From positions 1-39,786 of the forward strand of contig JADHNP010000018.1 of assembly GCA_016779445.1 (NCBI GenBank): 39,786 nucleotides of DNA, in the 5' to 3' direction. How positions within the stretch are numbered: position 1 is the first letter of the stretch; each line of letters starts with the position of its first letter. Of this stretch, positions 1-16,174 are shown one piece after another. The notes beneath the pieces were generated by a model. That model saw only the letters and a list, made by a program, of their open reading frames with translations. It searched no databases and was not told where the DNA came from. This stretch comes from Luminiphilus sp. (GTDB lineage Bacteria; Pseudomonadota; Gammaproteobacteria; Pseudomonadales; Halieaceae). The translations under genes were made by a program, and so were the position numbers.

Positions 1-1528
1 AGAAGCCTTGCCAACCCCATTCAAGACTGATTAGCGTTTCTTCATCGAAGATACTGAACCCGCTGACACGGTTTTGATCGAGGTCAGGCAGCGCTTCAAT
101 CGAAGCCAGCAAGCTGGCATTGGCGCCGCCCGCTCGCGCGCCGCGAGAAAGGGTAAGGTAGGTTTGTTGTCCGCGCTGGTAGCTCCAGGTGAGACCGGTA
201 CGCCCCGTCCAGTAGTCATGATCGAAGGGCGTATTGACCGCGGCGCTATCGCGGTAGTGGCTCTCGCGTCTTTCGAGTCGCGCCCCGATAAAGCCAGAGA
301 GAGTGTCCGTAAAAGCACGGTTTACCTCTGCAAAAATTGCGCCGGTGTCTGTTTCTATCTTGCTTGAGAACGGTCCAGGCAAGTAGCTGTAGTCGCGGGT
401 TAACGTTTCTCGCTGATGTCTCAAGAACGTGCCTAATATCCATGCGGTTCGTCCACCGCTCAGGGGTTGAACACGCCATTCCAGACTTGTCATTGTTCTG
501 TCGCGACGATATTCATCAAATGACTGGTATTCCCAGCCCGGTGCGATGCCAACAAAACTCCAGTCCTCGTCGTAGCTATAAGTGGTCTCGGTGTCCGCAT
601 GGCTCAGTTGGAGCCAGCTTTGATATGGCCCTATAGGACCTTGCCATTTGATCCGTGCAGCTTTGAGCGTCAGATCATCTTCCCCAGGCTCATCAGAGAG
701 CGTATGGCGGGTATTGTCGAGAGAAAACGCGTCGTAACCATTGTTAACACGAGTGTAGTAGAGCCCAGTCTCAAACAGGTGCTCATTCAATTGCCAGCGG
801 GCGGCGCCACGCGCTGTGAGCTCATCTCGCGCATTGGTGTCGTTGCGGTTCAGCCATTGATTAGTGGTGAAGCCATCACTTGTATAGCGCTGAAGTGCGA
901 GACGCGCGCTGGTATTTTCCGATGTTGGCCCTCCGATCTTCATACCCAACCGGTATCCACCATCAGTTTCTGCGCCTGCGCTAAAAGTAGTGTTCCGCTG
1001 CTCTGGGGAGGTGCTCTGCATGGCAATAACGCCAGCCAATGCGTTGGCGCCCATCAGTGTCCCCTGGGGACCTCGGAGCACCTCAACCTGTTCTAGATCA
1101 AATAGTGTGAGCGTCCCCCCCAAGCCACTGAGATCGACACCGTCTAACAGTATTCCGATAGAGGGGTTGAGCGGCTCGACAAATTGGCTGCGCTCACCGA
1201 TTCCACGTATCTGAATAAAACGGCTTCGAGATGCGCCAGAGGAGCTGGAAACGTTGGCCAGTAACGTGACCAGATCATCAAGATGGACGCCGCCGCGCTG
1301 GGCTCGATCACGACCATTGAGTACCGACACGCTGACGGGAGGCATGGCTTCCTCCATGAGGGTCGCCGTTACCGTGACTTCTTCAATCAGTGGTAAGGGT
1401 TGCGCAACGACGATCGCAGCATGGGTTGCCAAATAGCAGGCTCCAAGGCAAGTCAGCCTTGAGGCGTTCCCTTTTCTTACAGTGCAGTCGATATGGGCAT
1501 TTAAGCGTTTTGAGCTGATGGCGTTCAT
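1..1528 (-). CDS. TonB-dependent outer-membrane receptor, TPP-riboswitch controlled (partial)
   Basis: The reading frame is open from the ATG at 1528 to the left edge, giving 509 codons of a larger protein. After a basic, hydrophobic leader (about residues 18-43) comes a TonB box, EEVTVTA, at residues 49-55. A plug domain follows, with LRGPQGTLMGANALAG at about 151-166, then beta-barrel sequence including ETLISLEWGW near the edge. Such receptors import scarce nutrients across the outer membrane using energy from TonB-ExbB-ExbD. A TPP riboswitch in the leader points to thiamine, a precursor or a phosphorylated form as substrate; that substrate is inferred. A GAGG sequence lies 14 bases before the ATG, a rather long spacing, but no better in-frame start is visible. 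The C-terminus is outside the window, so completeness cannot be judged. Confidence 0.9.
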   Translation of the reverse strand, partial: MNAISSKRLNAHIDCTVRKGNASRLTCLGACYLATHAAIVVAQPLPLIEEVTVTATLMEEAMPPVSVSVLNGRDRAQRGGVHLDDLVTLLANVSSSSGASRSRFIQIRGIGERSQFVEPLNPSIGILLDGVDLSGLGGTLTLFDLEQVEVLRGPQGTLMGANALAGVIAMQSTSPEQRNTTFSAGAETDGGYRLGMKIGGPTSENTSARLALQRYTSDGFTTNQWLNRNDTNARDELTARGAARWQLNEHLFETGLYYTRVNNGYDAFSLDNTRHTLSDEPGEDDLTLKAARIKWQGPIGPYQSWLQLSHADTETTYSYDEDWSFVGIAPGWEYQSFDEYRRDRTMTSLEWRVQPLSGGRTAWILGTFLRHQRETLTRDYSYLPGPFSSKIETDTGAIFAEVNRAFTDTLSGFIGARLERRESHYRDSAAVNTPFDHDYWTGRTGLTWSYQRGQQTYLTLSRGARAGGANASLLASIEALPDLDQNRVSGFSIFDEETLISLEWGWQGF

Positions 1529-1562
1529 CGCGTTGCGGGTTCCCTCTTTGTGGCGGGGAACT

Positions 1563-1587
1563 GGCGAAGCCAGGCAGGAACTTCGCC
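1563..1587 (-). promoter_or_regulatory. Hairpin in the riboswitch expression platform
   Basis: GGCGAAG (1587-1581) and CTTCGCC (1569-1563) form a perfect 7-bp stem with an 11-base loop, directly after the TPP aptamer. No T-run follows, so it is not a classical terminator. Downstream, CCCCGC (1558-1553) can pair with GCGGGG (1671-1666) inside the aptamer, a possible alternative fold close to the ribosome binding site. The role is inferred. Confidence 0.45.
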
Positions 1588-1588
1588 C

Positions 1589-1678
1589 GGCACCTAGTCC
1601 CTCCGCCGGTATCATCCGGATCAGGTTCAACGGGTTCGCCACTCTGGCATCTCAGGTATTCACCACCCCGCAGGTACC
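1589..1678 (-). promoter_or_regulatory. TPP (thiamine pyrophosphate) riboswitch, THI element
   Basis: Read on the minus strand, this has the conserved THI-box parts in order: GGGGTG, CTGAGA, ACCC, TTGAACCTGATCCGGAT, then GGCGGAGGGA. The ends pair as a 7-bp P1 stem, GGTACCT (1678-1672) with AGGTGCC (1595-1589). It lies 60 bases before the start of the TonB-dependent receptor. By family knowledge, TPP binding lowers expression of the downstream gene. No T-run terminator follows, so translational control is more likely than termination. Confidence 0.93.
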
Positions 1679-1895: not shown

Positions 1896-2930
1896 GTGAG
1901 CCGATTAAACCAATACGTTACAAAGCTGCGGCTAGGGGATACCATCGCTCAGACGGAGTCTCTCTTGAATCGCCTGTGGCAAGATTATGCGCGGAACCCT
2001 GCGAAACTCACGCGGTTGCAGAGCTTCTTGCTCGCAGTGCTAGTGCTGTGGTCTCTAGCGAGCGCGAGCCAATTGTTTTGGGCCCCATGGCGTAGTACGT
2101 CATTGGAAGCCATTCCCGCCGAAATGATCAATATTCCTCGGCTTACCGCTGGCTCTGGCAATATCGCCATCGATATCACCCCCGTACTCGGTTCCGGCAT
2201 ATTCGGTGGTGATCCGGATACGCTAGAGGATGAGGGTGGGGCCGCAACCATCGATAGCGGGCGCGAGGGTATTGAGCAAAACGCCAAGGAGACGCGTCTC
2301 GCGTTGGTGTTGACGGGTATTGTCGCGTCGACTGAGGACGGATTGGGAAGCGCGGTAATTAAGGGAGGAAGTCGCGAGCAGGTATATGCCGTGGGTGATG
2401 ACTTGCCCGTTTCTGGCAAAGTGACTTTAGTAAAGGTGATGCCCAGACAGGTCGTTATCGATAATAGCGGCACTTACGAACTGATTAAGCTTTACGAGGG
2501 ACCGGGTCTGGTATTACCCACCCGAGCAGCGCAAAAGGCGCGTCCGGATTCGGCGACGCCTGCCACGTCGCAATCGGCCGGCGACGATACAGTCGTTGAT
2601 GTCGAGGCGAAGGCGATTGTGGCTGGGCAGTTTCGGCAGCAACTCTATGAGGCGCCTGAATCCCTTGCTCGCGTTGTCTCGATTTCTCCGGTACGCGAGG
2701 GGGGCAGTGTCTTTGGATACCGTGTAGCGCCCGGGGCAGACCGCGACGCCTTTAATGCAACCGGTCTTCAGTCGGGTGACGTTGTAAAGGCGGTGAATGG
2801 GCTGGCGCTGAGCGATGCGAGTAATACACTGAAACTGTATCAATTGATGAAAGACGCCAATCAAGCGACTTTTGAACTAGAGCGGAATGGCGAATCGGTC
2901 ACACTCAATGTGGATATTGCGAGCCCGTAA
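1896..2930 (+). CDS. gspC: Type II secretion system protein GspC
   Basis: GspC is the inner-membrane protein that links the cytoplasmic-membrane platform to the secretin GspD. The 344-aa product has a short cytoplasmic tail and one membrane segment (residues 42-62). The periplasmic homology region (about 120-200) contains LTGIVAS and a GDDLP-type motif. The C-terminus is a PDZ domain (about 250-344) with GLQSGDVVKAVNG. It is the first gene of the operon and lies 10 bases before gspD. The start is GTG at 1896 with AAGGA about 13 bases upstream. An ATG at 1882 is out of frame and stops after five codons. Confidence 0.95.
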   Translation: MSRLNQYVTKLRLGDTIAQTESLLNRLWQDYARNPAKLTRLQSFLLAVLVLWSLASASQLFWAPWRSTSLEAIPAEMINIPRLTAGSGNIAIDITPVLGSGIFGGDPDTLEDEGGAATIDSGREGIEQNAKETRLALVLTGIVASTEDGLGSAVIKGGSREQVYAVGDDLPVSGKVTLVKVMPRQVVIDNSGTYELIKLYEGPGLVLPTRAAQKARPDSATPATSQSAGDDTVVDVEAKAIVAGQFRQQLYEAPESLARVVSISPVREGGSVFGYRVAPGADRDAFNATGLQSGDVVKAVNGLALSDASNTLKLYQLMKDANQATFELERNGESVTLNVDIASP

Positions 2931-2940
2931 CAGGATACCC

Positions 2941-4950
2941 GTGAAAAAAATGGATATACGTTTGTTGTCCCTATCGAGTCTGCGCATCGTTTGTATCGCG
3001 GTGCTGCTGTGTTGGGCGCCTCTATCGCCCGCGCAAGAATATACGGTCAACCTTAAAGATACGGATATTCAAGAGTTTATTAAATTTGTTGCCGATGTGA
3101 CGGGCACCACGATGGTGGTGGATCCTAACGTCAAAGGTAAGGTCAGGGTTATTTCTTCTCAGCCTGTGACACAGGCTGAGCTGTACGACCTTTTTCTGTC
3201 TATTTTGGACGTTCAGGGTTACACCGCGGTGCGCAGTGGCCAGATCATTCGCATTGTTCCGAGTAAAGACGCGCGTTCCTCACCGGTGCCGCTCATGGGT
3301 GATCAGGACACGGCAGCCAATGATGAGTACGTTACGCAAGTCATCCGGTTGGAAAACATCTCGGCGGCTAAGCTGATTCCCGTATTACGCCCACTTGTGC
3401 CACAACAGGCCCACATGGCGGCTTATGCGCCAAGCAATGCGATTATCCTCTCAGATATTCGCTCCAATATTGGAAGAATTGTCGACATCATTGAGCGCAT
3501 GGATCGTTCCGCGGTTCAGACAACCGAGATTATTCGGCTGAGATATGGCGTCGCCGAGGATGTCGTCAGCATGCTCAACGCATTGGAAAAATCGCGTCAG
3601 GGTGAGGGTGCGGAGGCCGACAAGGAGGCGATACTCGTAGCCGATAAGCGCACCAATAGCGTAGTGGTAACCGCAGACGAGGTAACGGTAGAGCGAATCC
3701 GCAAACTGGTGACGTATCTCGATACCCCGCTCGAGCAGTCCGGTAACGTCCGGGTAGTCTACCTCGAGTATGCAGACTCAGTTGAAGTTGCGGAGGTGCT
3801 CACGCGGGTCATGCAAAATATCGCTCGGCTCGAAGAGGGCGGAGCGAACAAGCGCTCGGGTAATAATGAATCCACTATCGAAGCAGATGCCGGCACTAAC
3901 AGCCTGATCATCACTGCCGATACGGACGAAATGGCGGCGCTGGAGTCGGTGATTGCGCGCCTCGATATCCGTCGTGCCCAGGTGCTGATTGAGGCAATTA
4001 TCGTCGAGATGGAGATGACCGAGGGTCAGGAGCTCGGTCTGCAATGGCTGTTCTCAAATGATGGCGGTTTGTACGGTAGCAACATCAGTACGAGTTCTGC
4101 GCAACAGGCGCGCAACCGTGCGCTGGCCGATGCCATTCTTCCCGACGACGGATCCGAGACCATTTCTACAAGAAGTGTGGCGGGCGCGCTATCCCAAATT
4201 CCGGGCACGACCCTAGGCTGGGGCGTGGTCGATCAGGATCTGACTATGTCTGTCATCCTCAACGCCCTGGAGACTCAGGGGAACGCTAATATCCTCTCGA
4301 CGCCGAGCTTGTTGACTCTGGATAATGAAGAGGCCTTTATTACAGTTGGCCAACAAGTGCCCTTTGTTACTGGCTCCTATACGAGTACGGGCGTGGCTAA
4401 TGGCGCCCAGAATCCTTTCCAGACTATTGAGCGTCAGAGTGTTGGCGTTACGCTCACAGTGACACCGCAGGTTAACGAGGGAGATTCTATTGTGCTGGAC
4501 ATCGTGCAAGAGGTGTCGAGTATCTCTGCGCAGATTTTAGTGGCGTCCGACGTGATTACGAATGAGAGAAAGATTGAAACGAAAGTACTGGCCAATGACA
4601 GCGATATCGTGGTGCTGGGTGGATTGGTCAAGGACGAAGTTCAGGACTCGACCCAGGGGATTCCTATCTTGTCCGATATCCCACTGCTGGGAAGGCTGTT
4701 TCGTAACGATGTTGTCACGGTGACCAAATCGAACCTGTTGGTGTTCATTCGTCCCACGATCATCCGCGATGATGAGGATTTGATTGGCGCAACTGCTGAG
4801 AAGTATCGCTTTATACGAGAGCAACAGATTGAGCGTCGCGAGAGAGGCTTGATGTTCTTGGATGACGGTAATCTGCCGGTATTGCCCTCATGGGAAGAGC
4901 AGATACAGCAGTTACCTGAGGTGCCCGCGGACGACCGCGGAGATGGCTAG
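2941..4950 (+). CDS. gspD: Type II secretion secretin GspD
   Basis: GspD forms the outer-membrane channel through which folded exoproteins leave. The 669-aa product has a signal peptide (about 1-32, ending SPAQ). Domain N0 starts at EYTVNLKDTDI and is followed by N1-N3 repeats, with RTNSVVV and GTNSLIITAD marking N2 and N3. The secretin core then carries VGQQVPFVTG and the C-terminal DIPLLGRLF motif. I chose GTG at 2941 because AGGA lies 7 bases before it. A longer in-frame version from 2887 would overlap gspC and put extra residues before the signal peptide. No pilotin gene is seen nearby. Confidence 0.96.
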   Translation: MKKMDIRLLSLSSLRIVCIAVLLCWAPLSPAQEYTVNLKDTDIQEFIKFVADVTGTTMVVDPNVKGKVRVISSQPVTQAELYDLFLSILDVQGYTAVRSGQIIRIVPSKDARSSPVPLMGDQDTAANDEYVTQVIRLENISAAKLIPVLRPLVPQQAHMAAYAPSNAIILSDIRSNIGRIVDIIERMDRSAVQTTEIIRLRYGVAEDVVSMLNALEKSRQGEGAEADKEAILVADKRTNSVVVTADEVTVERIRKLVTYLDTPLEQSGNVRVVYLEYADSVEVAEVLTRVMQNIARLEEGGANKRSGNNESTIEADAGTNSLIITADTDEMAALESVIARLDIRRAQVLIEAIIVEMEMTEGQELGLQWLFSNDGGLYGSNISTSSAQQARNRALADAILPDDGSETISTRSVAGALSQIPGTTLGWGVVDQDLTMSVILNALETQGNANILSTPSLLTLDNEEAFITVGQQVPFVTGSYTSTGVANGAQNPFQTIERQSVGVTLTVTPQVNEGDSIVLDIVQEVSSISAQILVASDVITNERKIETKVLANDSDIVVLGGLVKDEVQDSTQGIPILSDIPLLGRLFRNDVVTVTKSNLLVFIRPTIIRDDEDLIGATAEKYRFIREQQIERRERGLMFLDDGNLPVLPSWEEQIQQLPEVPADDRGDG

Positions 4951-4956
4951 TCGCTG

Positions 4957-6474
4957 GTGACGGAGCCCGTAATCAACGAAGCGGTGGCAGCAGAAGCTCC
5001 CGGTGCGGTCATGGCCTCCGGCGTGCCTTTTACCTTTGCTCAGAGCCGCGGTGTTTTGCTCGATCGAAAAGGGGCTGTTCCTACTCTTTATTATGTCCCT
5101 CCATTACAGTCGGATGTATTGCTTGAGGTGCGTCGTTTTGTAGGCGAGGCTTTTACCCTAGAGGTGCTGGATGCGGAGCAGTTTCGGCAGCGCCTGACTC
5201 TGGCATACCAGCGTACGCAGAATGAAGCAGCGCAGATGGCAGAAGATTTATCTACGGATGTCGATCTGGCGCAGCTGGTTGATGAGCTGCCCGATGTGGG
5301 TGATCTCATGGATGCTGAGGACGATGCGCCAATTATTCGGCTCATCAATGCCATTCTTTCCCAGGCGGTGAAAGAGAAAGCATCTGATATTCACATCGAA
5401 ACTTTCGAAGAACGCCTCACTGTTCGCTATCGCGTAGACGGCGTGTTGACCGAGATCCTGTCGCCAAAACGCATGCTCGCGCCGTTACTGGTGTCACGGC
5501 TGAAGGTGATGGCGAAATTGGATATTGCGGAAAAACGTGTGCCGCAAGATGGCCGGATCTCGGTACGGATAGCGGGGCACGGAATCGATATCAGGATGTC
5601 GACCATTCCCTCGGCCTATGGTGAACGGGTCGTATTAAGACTTCTGGATAAGCAGGCGGGGCAGCTCAATTTAAGTGAGCTACGTATGAACGAGCAGGTC
5701 GACTCAGCCTATCGCAATGCGCTAGCGAGTCCCCACGGCATTATTTTGGTTACTGGCCCCACGGGGTCGGGTAAAACTACGACGCTTTACGCGGGGCTCT
5801 CCAGTATCAATGAGTCGTCACGCAATATTCTGACGATAGAGGACCCTGTTGAGTACATGTTGCCTGGTGTGGGGCAAACGCAGGTTAATCCCAAGGTTGA
5901 TATGACCTTCGCGCGAGGCTTGCGCGCTATTCTGCGGCAGGATCCCGATATCGTTATGGTTGGTGAAGTACGTGATCTTGAGACAGCGGAGATCGCTGTT
6001 CAGGCCTCGCTAACGGGGCATCTCGTGCTGTCTACACTACACACAAATACTGCGATTGGTGCCGTCACGCGGCTTCAAGATATGGGCGTAGAGCCATTTT
6101 TGCTGTCCTCCAGCTTACTGGCGGTAATGGCTCAGCGTCTGGTGAGACTATTGTGTCTGGAGTGTCGTGAGCCCTACCGGCCGACGGATATCGAGTGCGA
6201 GAGGCTCGGCATTACCGACTCTCAGATACAGCTATATCGCGGCGTAGGATGCGAGCACTGTAACTTCACGGGCTATCGTGGCAGAACCGGTATTTATGAG
6301 TTAGTAGAAATTGGCGACGCACTTCGTGAAGCCATTCACACCGGTGAGGGAGAGCAGGCGCTTTTGCGAATAGCCCGTCAGCATAGCCCCGGTATCGATG
6401 CCGATGGACGGCGGAGAATACTGGAAGGGCAAACTAGCCTTGAGGAAGTCCTTAGGGTAACGGCGGTGAACTGA
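4957..6474 (+). CDS. gspE: Type II secretion ATPase GspE
   Basis: GspE is the cytoplasmic hexameric ATPase that powers pseudopilus assembly. The 505-aa product has an N-terminal N1E-type domain that would contact GspL (FAQSRGVLL). The Walker A motif is GPTGSGKTTT at about residues 266-275, and an Asp box is followed by Walker B, DPDIVMVGEVRD, near 326-337. A zinc-binding CLEC...CEHC tetracysteine motif lies at about 400-432. The usual length is about 500 aa, so it is complete. The GTG start is 6 bases after gspD. An in-frame ATG at 5011 is an alternative nearer the typical family start but has no Shine-Dalgarno sequence. Confidence 0.96.
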   Translation: MTEPVINEAVAAEAPGAVMASGVPFTFAQSRGVLLDRKGAVPTLYYVPPLQSDVLLEVRRFVGEAFTLEVLDAEQFRQRLTLAYQRTQNEAAQMAEDLSTDVDLAQLVDELPDVGDLMDAEDDAPIIRLINAILSQAVKEKASDIHIETFEERLTVRYRVDGVLTEILSPKRMLAPLLVSRLKVMAKLDIAEKRVPQDGRISVRIAGHGIDIRMSTIPSAYGERVVLRLLDKQAGQLNLSELRMNEQVDSAYRNALASPHGIILVTGPTGSGKTTTLYAGLSSINESSRNILTIEDPVEYMLPGVGQTQVNPKVDMTFARGLRAILRQDPDIVMVGEVRDLETAEIAVQASLTGHLVLSTLHTNTAIGAVTRLQDMGVEPFLLSSSLLAVMAQRLVRLLCLECREPYRPTDIECERLGITDSQIQLYRGVGCEHCNFTGYRGRTGIYELVEIGDALREAIHTGEGEQALLRIARQHSPGIDADGRRRILEGQTSLEEVLRVTAVN

Positions 6475-13280: not shown

Positions 13281-13421
13281 GACCTGGGTGAGACTTGAGC
13301 GTGACGTGCGGTACGCGGTGCCTGCGTCGGCGTGCGTCGCCACAAATTTCAGCGTGGCACCCTCAATTTCGATGAGTGCTTGCGAACGGCCAAAAGAAAG
13401 ACATTGAAAGGAGGCCCACTT

Positions 13422-14765
13422 ATGGGGTCAGCAGGCAATGCAGTGTGGTCCAATCGTTTTGCTTTCGTTATGGCGTCGGTGGGATTTGCCGTCGGGTTGG
13501 GCAATATCTGGCGCTTTCCCTATGTGACGGGTGAAAACGGTGGCAGTGCCTTTGTTGCGATCTACCTACTCTGCACATTGTCGATAGGTATCCCGTGCCT
13601 GATGGCGGAGTTAATTGTTGGACGCCGCGGTGGTGGGAGTCCACCACGCTCTATGGCAATGGTCGCTCGACAGTCCGATCGCAGCGCTAATTGGATGATC
13701 GTTGGCGGTATGGGAGTATTGACGGCCTACACGATCGCGATTACCTATGCTGTTGTAGTGGGCTGGGTGCTCTGGTATCTGGGACGCGCGCTCATGACGG
13801 GCTTCGTGGGTTTTGATACAGGCGTAGCAGACAGCACTTTTGCAGGATTGCTCGGTGATAACCAGTCGATGGTGATCTGGACACTCATAGGCAATCTGAT
13901 CGTCGGTTGCATCATCTATGCCGGCATTACAGCGGGCATTGAACGCGCCGTGACCATCATGATGCCACTGATGTTCACACTTCTGATCGGGCTAAGTATT
14001 TATAACTATTTTGCCGGAGGCTTCTACGAAACCCTCCAGTGGCTGTTCACGCCCGACTTCAGCAAGGTAACAGGTGCTACTTTTCTCGCTGCGGTGGGGC
14101 AGGCTTTTTTCTCAATTGGCGTTGGCATGGGGGGCATGATGACCTACGGGGCTTACTTGCCGCGCGATTTTTCTATTGCGAAAGGTGCGGCGACAATTGT
14201 CATGGCCGATACGCTCGTAGCCTTACTGGCCGGATTTGTCGTATTCCCCGCGGTGTTTCATTTTGGACTCGACATGGCGGGTGGTCCGGGTTTGATTTTC
14301 CAAACGTTGCCGGTCGCGTTTGCACAGATGCCCGGAGGCGGCATATTCTCGGTCTTGTTTTTCATTATGTTGGCTGTCGCGGGGATCACCTCAATGGTGG
14401 GTCTGTTGGAAAGCGTCACCAGCTGGACCCAGGAAAGGCTGGATATATCGAGGCAGCGCAGCACATTATTGGTGGTTGGATCTGTCACCTGTTTCAGCGT
14501 CGTTTCGGTGCTCAGCTATAACATCTGGGAGGATTACCGATTATTGGGCATGAACTTCAATGAGTTAACCGAAGCGCTTTATGACAAAGTGTTGCTGCCA
14601 CTCGCGGGGCTACTGGTCGCGCTCTTTACAGGATGGTTCATGCATCGGGAGCACAGTGAAGATGAGCTAAGAGATGACCTTAGATGGTTTGGTCTATGGC
14701 GCGGATTGACCCGTTGGATCGTGGTGCCAGCAGTTGCACTGATTCTCATCAAGGGATTGTTCTGA
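13422..14765 (+). CDS. Sodium-dependent transporter, NSS/SNF family
   Basis: This is a 447-aa polytopic inner-membrane protein of the neurotransmitter:sodium symporter family, which imports amino acids or similar compounds with Na+. The N-terminus carries the family signature GFAVGLGNIWRFPYVTGENG (TM1 with the unwound, ion-binding segment). TM6 has FFSIGVGMGGMMTYGAYL. About 11-12 membrane segments fit the length. The ATG at 13422 has a strong AAAGGAGG about 8 bases upstream; the frame is open 30 codons further up but without support. The substrate cannot be told from sequence. It is followed within 5 bases by a second sodium symporter. Confidence 0.93.
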   Translation: MGSAGNAVWSNRFAFVMASVGFAVGLGNIWRFPYVTGENGGSAFVAIYLLCTLSIGIPCLMAELIVGRRGGGSPPRSMAMVARQSDRSANWMIVGGMGVLTAYTIAITYAVVVGWVLWYLGRALMTGFVGFDTGVADSTFAGLLGDNQSMVIWTLIGNLIVGCIIYAGITAGIERAVTIMMPLMFTLLIGLSIYNYFAGGFYETLQWLFTPDFSKVTGATFLAAVGQAFFSIGVGMGGMMTYGAYLPRDFSIAKGAATIVMADTLVALLAGFVVFPAVFHFGLDMAGGPGLIFQTLPVAFAQMPGGGIFSVLFFIMLAVAGITSMVGLLESVTSWTQERLDISRQRSTLLVVGSVTCFSVVSVLSYNIWEDYRLLGMNFNELTEALYDKVLLPLAGLLVALFTGWFMHREHSEDELRDDLRWFGLWRGLTRWIVVPAVALILIKGLF

Positions 14766-14770
14766 TCGCC

Positions 14771-16174
14771 ATGCTAGTAGCGATTACCGATTGGCTGTGG
14801 TCTTACGTATTAATAGCAGCGTTACTGCTAGTGGGCCTGCGGTTCACACTCGGATCCAGAGTTGCTCAGCTTCGGTTGTTCCGACGTGCATTGAGTGTGC
14901 TATCGGATATTGACTGGCGCGGTTCTGATCGGGGTATATCGAGTTTCCAGGCGCTGGTGGTGAGCATTGCTGGACGAGTCGGCGGAGGGAATATCGCGGG
15001 TGTGGCGGTCGCCATCACACTGGGTGGTCCCGGTGCCTTGTTCTGGATGTGGTTGATCGCCCTTCTGGGGATGGCCACCAGCTTATTTGAGTGCGCATTG
15101 GCGCAGCTCTACAAGAGGCGTGATGGCACCGATACTTTCCGTGGCGGGCCCGCCTATATGATGCGTTATGGTCTCGGCTGGCGAGTCCTGCCGGTTATCT
15201 ACAGCGTATTGCTTATGGCCACTATCGGCTTTGGATTTAATGCAGTTCAAAGCTATGTCGTAACGACTTCAATCGAATCTGCTTTTGGTGTACCGCCCCT
15301 GGTCAGTGGCCTTGTTATGACCTCTGCGATGGCGATTATTCTCTTTGGGGGTATTCGTCGACTGGCTTTTTTCGCCGAGATTGTTGTTCCTGTAATGGTA
15401 GTGGGATATCTGCTGATCGCATTGATGGTGTTGGCATTAAATGCCTCCGCGATACCGCAAGCACTGGGTTTGATTTTTACTTCGGCCTTCGGTTTGGAGC
15501 AGGCTGTTGGCGGGGGTATTGCGGCAGCGATTACTCAGGGTGCGCGTCGCGGCCTTTTCTCAAATGAGGCGGGGTTGGGGACCGTACCTAATGTCGCCGC
15601 TGCCGCTGATGTACCCCATCCAGTCACACAGGGATTAGTGCAATCGCTAAGTGTTTTTATTGACACCATCGTTCTATGCACTGCCACTGCACTGATTATA
15701 TTGCTGTCTTCTGTGTACCAGCCAGATGCTCAGGGTGTTCAGGGCGTTATCCTGACTCAAATGGCGGTAGCCGAGCACCTTGGGGCCATTGGTGAGCCGA
15801 TAGTCAGTATCGCCCTGGTTCTGTTCGCCACGACGACAATTGCTTATAACAGTTTTCTGGGAGAGAACAGCATCGCGTATTTTGGGAAAGCGGGCGGTCG
15901 CCCTGTGCTGATTTTCAGAGTCAGTGTCTTGGCGTTGATTGCCTGGGCATCTGTGCAGGATCTCAGCACTGTATTTGGTTTCGCGGATCTGACAATGGCG
16001 CTGCTGGCGTTAGTTAACTTGTTGGCGCTATGGGCTCTCTATCCTGTTGCGATGAGGTTGATGTCTCAATTTGAAGATCAGGTTAAGGCGGGTGAGTCTC
16101 CCCGATTTGGTGTCGACCAGCTTCCCGATCAGGCGTTGGATGTAGAGAGTTGGCCGTCTCAGCAGGCTCATTGA
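14771..16174 (+). CDS. Alanine/glycine:cation symporter, AGCS family
   Basis: This 467-aa membrane protein belongs to the AGCS family, which takes up alanine or glycine with Na+ or H+. Signatures are GRVGGGNIAGVAVAITLGGP near the N-terminus, FRGGPAYMMRYGLG, and TQGARRGLFSNEAGLGTVPN. The last is diagnostic. I chose ATG at 14771, 5 bases after the NSS gene; a longer in-frame version from 14684 would lie inside that gene. Its stop is 4 bases from the convergent htrA-like stop, leaving no room for a separate terminator. Confidence 0.93.
   Translation: MLVAITDWLWSYVLIAALLLVGLRFTLGSRVAQLRLFRRALSVLSDIDWRGSDRGISSFQALVVSIAGRVGGGNIAGVAVAITLGGPGALFWMWLIALLGMATSLFECALAQLYKRRDGTDTFRGGPAYMMRYGLGWRVLPVIYSVLLMATIGFGFNAVQSYVVTTSIESAFGVPPLVSGLVMTSAMAIILFGGIRRLAFFAEIVVPVMVVGYLLIALMVLALNASAIPQALGLIFTSAFGLEQAVGGGIAAAITQGARRGLFSNEAGLGTVPNVAAAADVPHPVTQGLVQSLSVFIDTIVLCTATALIILLSSVYQPDAQGVQGVILTQMAVAEHLGAIGEPIVSIALVLFATTTIAYNSFLGENSIAYFGKAGGRPVLIFRVSVLALIAWASVQDLSTVFGFADLTMALLALVNLLALWALYPVAMRLMSQFEDQVKAGESPRFGVDQLPDQALDVESWPSQQAH

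Follow-up and report, generated by a model that had tools for sequence, protein, structure and literature searches.

A TPP riboswitch and its TonB-dependent receptor as the probable head of a vitamin B1 uptake operon in Luminiphilus

Thiamine auxotrophs are common among bacteria of the surface ocean, yet the TonB-type receptor candidate omr1 is described as being of unclear specificity (PMC12442306). In this context, a locus of Luminiphilus raises the question of what a receptor encoded directly behind a TPP riboswitch carries across the outer membrane, and which other functions the switch might govern. We analyzed a stretch of 39,786 nucleotides, here called the window, and followed the locus into the remainder of the source genome and into related bacteria. 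The riboswitch is very probably the control region, and the receptor the leading gene, of an operon for vitamin B1 uptake.

Riboswitch, leader and receptor gene

The initial annotation had described a full THI element in the receptor leader and named a search with the Rfam TPP model as the way to check it. That search returns a significant match: cmscan places a complete TPP riboswitch aptamer (THI element, RF00059) at positions 1580–1680 of the minus strand, read from 1680 to 1580, with 69.7 bits against a gathering threshold of 54.3 (E 7.3e-12) and over the full length of the model (1–105). The 7-bp P1 stem proposed at the time was a fair reading, as P1 counts 5 bp in the Rfam alignment (ACCUG/UAGGU) and 9 bp upon folding. 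A home-made covariance model, R1, trained on 23 riboswitch sequences with the window's own among them, scores the aptamer at 89.1 bits. Since the aptamer region folds with no better energy than shuffled sequences (z -0.23), the case for a riboswitch is made by the covariance match and not by stability. No other Rfam family exceeds its threshold in the window, and the source genome (G000, an assembly of 2.47 Mb in 132 contigs, 86.8% complete) contains a single TPP riboswitch match at E 0.001. On the 5' side of the riboswitch a pattern scan picks out a weak sigma-70-like promoter candidate at 1725–1754 of the minus strand (TTGCCA, 18 nt, GAAAAT; 9/12 matches), and on the 3' side 51 nt separate the aptamer from the ATG at 1528.

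Folding of the leader suggests a putative expression platform at 1529–1592 (minus strand), in which AGUUCCCC has two possible partners, the Shine-Dalgarno (SD)-like GAGGGA in the OFF state and the aptamer 3' core GGCGGAGGGACU in the ON state. At low TPP, the 3' core of the empty aptamer would pair with AGUUCCCCGCC, the SD-like GAGGGA would be open and the receptor would be made; with TPP bound, AGUUCCCC would pair with GAGGGAAC and the SD would be hidden. The mean unpaired probability of the SD in the window's leader is 0.58 in free folding versus 0.17 with the aptamer barred from other pairing, and 5 of 200 shuffled spacers equal this difference. Support from relatives is weak: among 38 leaders entered, several with doubtful start codons and some sharing a genome, 36 were scorable, and folding opens the SD by more than 0.1 in 8 and shifts it in the opposite direction in 2. 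In a shuffle control on six leaders picked from these 8, again with 200 shuffles each, the observed difference was reached 15 times for L069, 4 times each for L055 and L057, 5 times for L008, as for the window, and 30 times for L026. A conserved SD-sequestering platform was rejected on the grounds that so few leaders open, and because the relatives are inconsistent the idea is retained for the window's leader alone.

The variable platform folding among relatives would also agree with transcriptional control, through Rho or a terminator that escaped recognition, by which the whole operon including its last gene, PanE, would be switched. Tight packing of the genes makes polarity likely, which speaks for such a mechanism as well; it is countered by a search of positions 1400–2000, including the region downstream of the aptamer, in which no intrinsic terminator was found, and by the agreement of the window's own leader with SD sequestration. 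We regard transcriptional control as possible but somewhat doubtful. Given the inconsistent relatives and the missing intrinsic terminator, translational control through the SD is taken as the working model.

The receptor frame occupies positions 2–1528 of the minus strand, from the ATG at 1528 to base 2 at the contig edge, and encodes the N-terminal 509 residues of a TonB-dependent receptor: a hydrophobic N-terminus, a TonB-box-like EEVTVTA, the plug (PF07715, E 5.5e-16) and the first part of the barrel. EEVTVTA, seen by eye after the hydrophobic N-terminus, is a putative TonB box. Because the window starts at base 1 of contig C7, the truncation of the gene is an assembly edge. The missing part of the receptor, from residue 310 onward and 99% identical, closes another contig of this genome, C4, where it runs from 40575 downwards, and C7 (window 1–601) and C4 overlap within the gene over 601 nt with 11 mismatches. 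The simplest reading of this split is a break in the assembly, which strain variation may have caused.

Judged by its named relatives, the source genome belongs to Luminiphilus (Halieaceae). In the nearest named relative, isolate CPC75 (L069), the whole locus sits on one contig and the receptor is 94% identical over the 509 residues. This full-length copy contains both PF07715 and PF00593, as a plug-in-barrel receptor should, and its AlphaFold2 model (pLDDT 86.1) shows a plugged barrel whose nearest solved structures are FyuA (Z 40.8) and BtuB (Z 39.8 over 525 aligned residues with 14% identity). Across 41 receptors, the motifs NNGYDAFSLDNTR and YSYDEDW are rich in acidic and aromatic residues and near-invariant at many positions; they are candidate sites for a cationic ligand. 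By strand alternation in the model, the conserved motifs at about residues 263–284 and 317–323 would face outward, being placed inside or next to the loops that follow barrel strands 5 and 7. Models of known receptor classes were also tried. The BtuB model (TIGR01779) gives 45.4 bits for the window protein and 41.1 for the full L069 copy against a cut-off of 599.7, a siderophore-receptor model gives the full L069 copy 120.8 against 223.5, and heme receptor models likewise score the receptor below cut-off.

Elsewhere in the window, a type II secretion cluster, of which T2SSC and T2SSE were tested, runs divergently from the riboswitch at 1896–6471 (plus strand), and frames that look alike by eye flank the receptor on the corresponding side in L069 and L053. 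Two overlapping frames at 13332–16174 (plus strand) encode sodium symporters, one of the SNF family and one of the sodium:alanine family.

Association of riboswitch and receptor across genomes

A profile of 41 receptors, made from protein matches and not from riboswitch hits, was run on 97 genomes: 57 from the genus, a further 4 from its family and 36 from other families of the order. Family and paralogue scores split cleanly, at least 428 bits versus at most 320, two short gene pieces aside; the family was taken as all hits above 400 bits plus two smaller pieces (G037:C50 and G002:C4:74270) added by hand. Every one of the 60 hits that bear the N-terminus has a TPP riboswitch 61–292 nt upstream on the same strand, with distances measured from the profile match rather than the start codon. 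This count was repeated by hand and excludes the 3' piece of the split G002 gene, which an automatic count had credited with a riboswitch at 558 nt; one genome search behind it used stricter filters. The other 6 of the 66 family hits lack the N-terminus, and five of them have no upstream riboswitch (model starts 86, 194, 292, 396 and 400). Among the paralogue matches listed (204–320 bits), none of 58 has a TPP riboswitch; these represent part of all TonB receptors, as at most 12 candidates per genome were scored and matches were listed at E 1e-60. Three riboswitches of the genus have no adjacent receptor match: those of G014 and G055, both no more than about 525 nt from the end of a contig, and that of G052.

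Similarly, R1 detects the riboswitch in 33 of the 35 named clade loci that have upstream DNA. The two exceptions, L086 and L091, are from Campylobacterota, and their genomes each carry a TPP riboswitch elsewhere; no upstream DNA is available for L083, L088, L101 and L119, which stand outside this count. An Rfam search of these six loci gave no TPP match and one microRNA match below threshold. None of the non-clade loci L106 and L108–L148 has a riboswitch, with L119, cut at its start, set apart.

In a phylogeny of 82 proteins, L086 and L091 group with the receptors linked to a riboswitch; this single group holds 43 rows at an SH-aLRT of 100 and spans Gammaproteobacteria, Campylobacterota and one Neomarinimicrobiota MAG. 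The tree was computed by a quick method, and the program flagged long branches. It leaves out the window, loci numbered below 52 and receptors shorter than 450 residues, and also L052, L059, L064, L066–L068, L075, L076, L081, L083, L088, L101, L118, L119 and L122. With a link this close to universal in the clade, by locus, by genome hit and by phylogeny, the TPP-riboswitch control of the receptor that was first proposed for the window alone appears well founded as a comparative prediction.

A connection to thiamine that is independent of the riboswitch comes from Sulfurovum mangrovi, where the receptor, a small protein, PnuC and a kinase are followed some 3.7 kb further on by thiS and a thiazole synthase. 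The same species provides the one plasmid record with the receptor at E 1e-20: this locus (L149, NZ_CP087125.1) is filed as a plasmid, has pheST near the cassette besides thiS and thiazole synthase, and shows receptor and pnuC annotated as several short frames. Two TPP riboswitches 4.5–6.3 kb apart are seen in Sulfurovum and relatives (L087, L089, L093, L094, L096, L097), one in front of the receptor and the second further upstream or, in L097, downstream of the receptor. Within Luminiphilus, the receptor at G002:C4:74270–76298 is in two pieces with a TGA, which points to gene damage or to faulty assembly.

The downstream operon and the cargo of the receptor

The initial annotation had placed the remaining transport system outside the window, and it was found on contig C4. 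The order there is receptor, an 87-residue YkoF-like protein, a PnuC/PnuT-family transporter, an APH-family (ThiK-like) kinase and a PanE-like reductase, with gene families assigned on the L069 and L053 copies and the C4 genes by similarity. In the C4 sequence the receptor stop and the YkoF-like start overlap as ATGA, the PnuT-type gene begins 1 nt past the YkoF-like stop, the kinase probably starts inside the PnuT-type gene, and kinase and PanE again overlap as ATGA. Genes that overlap or nearly abut in this way suggest one transcript. The five-gene order is complete in 13 of 17 fetched regions. Among the four that remain, L059 and L064 had been selected for other riboswitches and contain no receptor of this type, L060 gives no YkoF or PnuT matches, and a contig end truncates L061. 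PanE lies about 0.6 kb away in L058 and L065, and the kinase of L066 is in two frames.

The transporter, two genes 3' of the receptor on C4 and in L069, belongs to family PF04973. It passes the cut-off of the nicotinamide riboside PnuC model (TIGR01528; 68.2 bits in L069 and 69.2 in L053 against 42.45), so its role in thiamine transport is drawn from context; the model may fail to separate PnuT from PnuC. The L069 kinase falls within the APH superfamily (PF01636, 49.6 bits against 23.2) and reaches 47.9 bits with the ThiK model TIGR02721, far under its cut-off of 299.45; the guanitoxin kinase model GntI scores higher, and also below cut-off (58.6 against 357). The YkoF-like protein of L069 just exceeds PF07615 (21.8 against 21 bits), which L087 narrowly misses and L089 does not match, and PF01910 is passed by L053 and missed by L069; at E 0.01 each of the two families matches 16 of 19 members. 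A profile of these proteins finds ykoF in the PDB at E 2.1e-6, and the structural model (pLDDT 84.6) retrieves MJ1052, MTH1187 and TM0486 as best Foldseek matches, with YkoF weaker. The profile link to YkoF/Thiamine_BP and the ferredoxin-like fold go together in this protein, and the structure of YkoF itself has been solved with thiamin.

These parts can be arranged into a pathway. A receptor energized by TonB-ExbBD would carry intact thiamine, perhaps also TMP or TPP, over the outer membrane, and the PnuT-type transporter would move thiamine through the inner membrane into the cytoplasm, where the YkoF-like protein may bind it. The APH-family kinase would then make TMP, ThiL would convert TMP to TPP, and TPP would close the switch.

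The gene content of the genus is consistent with such a route. ThiC was found in none of the 57 genus genomes, and neither ThiE nor thiamine pyrophosphokinase scored above cut-off in any of them; the latter left one 19-bit hit, and weak or partial ThiE hits occur in five genomes, as a 108-bit fragment in G056, at 56.5 bits in G017 and at 19 bits in G012, G023 and G033. ThiB at E 1e-20 was likewise found in 0/57. ThiL is above cut-off in 51 of the 57 and below it in G001, G019, G034, G046, G048 and G051. Many of these genomes are incomplete, and the same picture is given by G006, G031 and G053, each a single contig and 98–99% complete. With neither ThiC nor ThiE, the genus should depend on a supply of intact thiamine or thiamine phosphates; a pyrimidine by itself would not suffice. 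ThiL in the company of neither ThiE nor pyrophosphokinase implies that TMP is either made by a thiamine kinase or supplied externally. On this genomic evidence the Luminiphilus source bacterium apparently cannot make vitamin B1. Across 36 genomes from other families of the order, one per family, the receptor is present in 6 of 8 that lack ThiC versus 1 of 28 that have it (Fisher p 9.5e-5, uncorrected for shared descent); receptor and ThiC occur together in G083, from another family, and in G058, from the same family. In culture, Luminiphilus syltensis and three related isolates are reported to require thiamin (PMC3679898).

The pathway also helps to weigh other cargoes. TPP riboswitches adjoin precursor transporters as well, such as thiV in Pelagibacterales, and YkoF is listed as a binder of B1 or HMP (PMC10881298), so that the receptor might take up HMP or another pyrimidine instead of thiamine. 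With ThiC and above-cut-off ThiE both at 0/57, HMP could not be joined to thiazole and the pyrimidine would be unusable; we therefore consider a precursor cargo highly improbable. Of the substrates to which the initial annotation had limited the receptor, thiamine and its phosphates stand, and the pyrimidine precursor is argued against. TonB receptors usually serve scarce or large cargo, and free thiamine is porin-sized, which leaves room for TMP, TPP or a larger thiamine conjugate as the main cargo, the more so as ThiL could use imported TMP directly. The operon kinase would be superfluous for TMP, and the operon transporter belongs to the PnuT family, whose namesake is reported as a carrier of thiamine (PMC5613172), so that a phosphorylated or conjugated main cargo seems unlikely, if worth keeping in mind. 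Resemblance to other receptor classes invites a further reading, in which a cobalamin or siderophore receptor stands behind a TPP riboswitch by chance. The nearest folds are indeed FyuA and BtuB, as expected of any TonB-dependent receptor, and a siderophore-receptor model gives the best NCBIfam score. Such a coincidence is very hard to credit when both the siderophore and the B12 model leave the full L069 copy below cut-off, the riboswitch link is clade-wide and missing in the paralogues listed, and the neighboring genes fit thiamine. Uptake of intact thiamine, perhaps also of TMP or TPP, is the reading that we carry forward.

The last gene of the operon points beyond thiamine. PanE (G000:C4:36792–37724; L052:15793–16725, minus strand) is the only TIGR00745 match of its genome at E 1e-15, with 178.4 bits, and its L069 counterpart scores 174.9 against a cut-off of 141.35. 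At the same E value, 47 of the 57 genus genomes have a match, 43 of these 47 with PanE 1.65–1.74 kb from the receptor match; a second full copy is confined to G030, and G036 and G037 each show two pieces. PanB is present in 52/57, one of them partial, so pantoate synthesis is likely, and the operon PanE may, from these gene counts, be the sole dedicated ketopantoate reductase. It is conceivable, though in our judgment improbable, that the TPP riboswitch governs PanE along with the intact-thiamine cassette, so that B1 status would set the supply of a coenzyme A precursor. If true, one vitamin switch would tune two cofactor pathways.

Comparison with known systems

The closest described arrangement is OMthi (BT2390), which forms one operon with pnuT and tnr3 in most of the gut Bacteroidetes studied, and whose deletion raises the thiamine need of a Bacteroides biosynthesis mutant, even as OMthi and pnuT transcripts of Bacteroides thetaiotaomicron are described as barely responding to thiamine (PMC5613172). 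Likened by arrangement, that system as reported and the Luminiphilus locus have in common a TPP riboswitch 5' of a TonB-dependent receptor, a PnuT-type transporter and a thiamine-phosphorylating enzyme. The Luminiphilus receptor lies directly 3' of the riboswitch and is linked to a PnuT-family gene of presumed thiamine specificity, which makes it a putative OMR1/OMthi receptor. It differs from the OMthi system in that the searched biosynthesis genes are lacking, a ThiK-like kinase and a separate ThiL stand in the place of Tnr3, and the operon adds a YkoF-like protein and a PanE-like reductase.

Among marine bacterioplankton, omr1 is treated as a TonB-type putative B1 transporter (PMC10881298, PMC12442306, PMC12236431, PMC10470507). 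It is described beside a TDP riboswitch in SAR86 and Flavobacteriales (PMC10881298), and its transcripts are reported in Cellvibrionales, cited as lacking thiE (PMC12442306). Judging from these reports, the initial annotation overstated the rarity of such receptors in Gammaproteobacteria. Halieaceae and with them Luminiphilus are assigned by NCBI to Cellvibrionales, so the present locus resembles marine omr1 as reported in its TonB-type receptor near a TPP/TDP riboswitch and in its host; the passages on omr1 describe neither a Luminiphilus locus nor downstream genes. An earlier parallel is omr, a btuB homologue found behind THI elements on short metagenome fragments (PMC2211319), which like the present receptor is described as an outer-membrane receptor predicted under TPP control. 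The passages on those fragments give no organism or operon, whereas Luminiphilus has both.

BtuB, itself under riboswitch control, shares with the Luminiphilus receptor the fold and the logic of a vitamin receptor governed by a riboswitch. The two are set apart by the 14% identity in the structural alignment, by the failure of the Luminiphilus protein with TIGR01779 and by the class of riboswitch. Our literature search, with most subscription papers outside its scope, recognised no description of this operon, and for a TPP-controlled ketopantoate reductase it turned up a single entry, a metabolic model of Clostridium; Rodionov 2002 is said to be among the work on TPP-switched outer-membrane receptors.

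The locus seems to be present in the cultured strain HTCC2080, because this strain (L108) is in G124, whose single riboswitch agrees in contig number and coordinates with that of G016, where the whole operon was found (L062). A locus in a cultured strain would make substrate and affinity directly testable. By uniting receptor, inner-membrane transporter, kinase and switch, the Luminiphilus locus restricts the cargo to intact thiamine or thiamine phosphates. Set against the systems above, the receptor type is largely known, and the fresh point is the make-up of the operon, PanE included.
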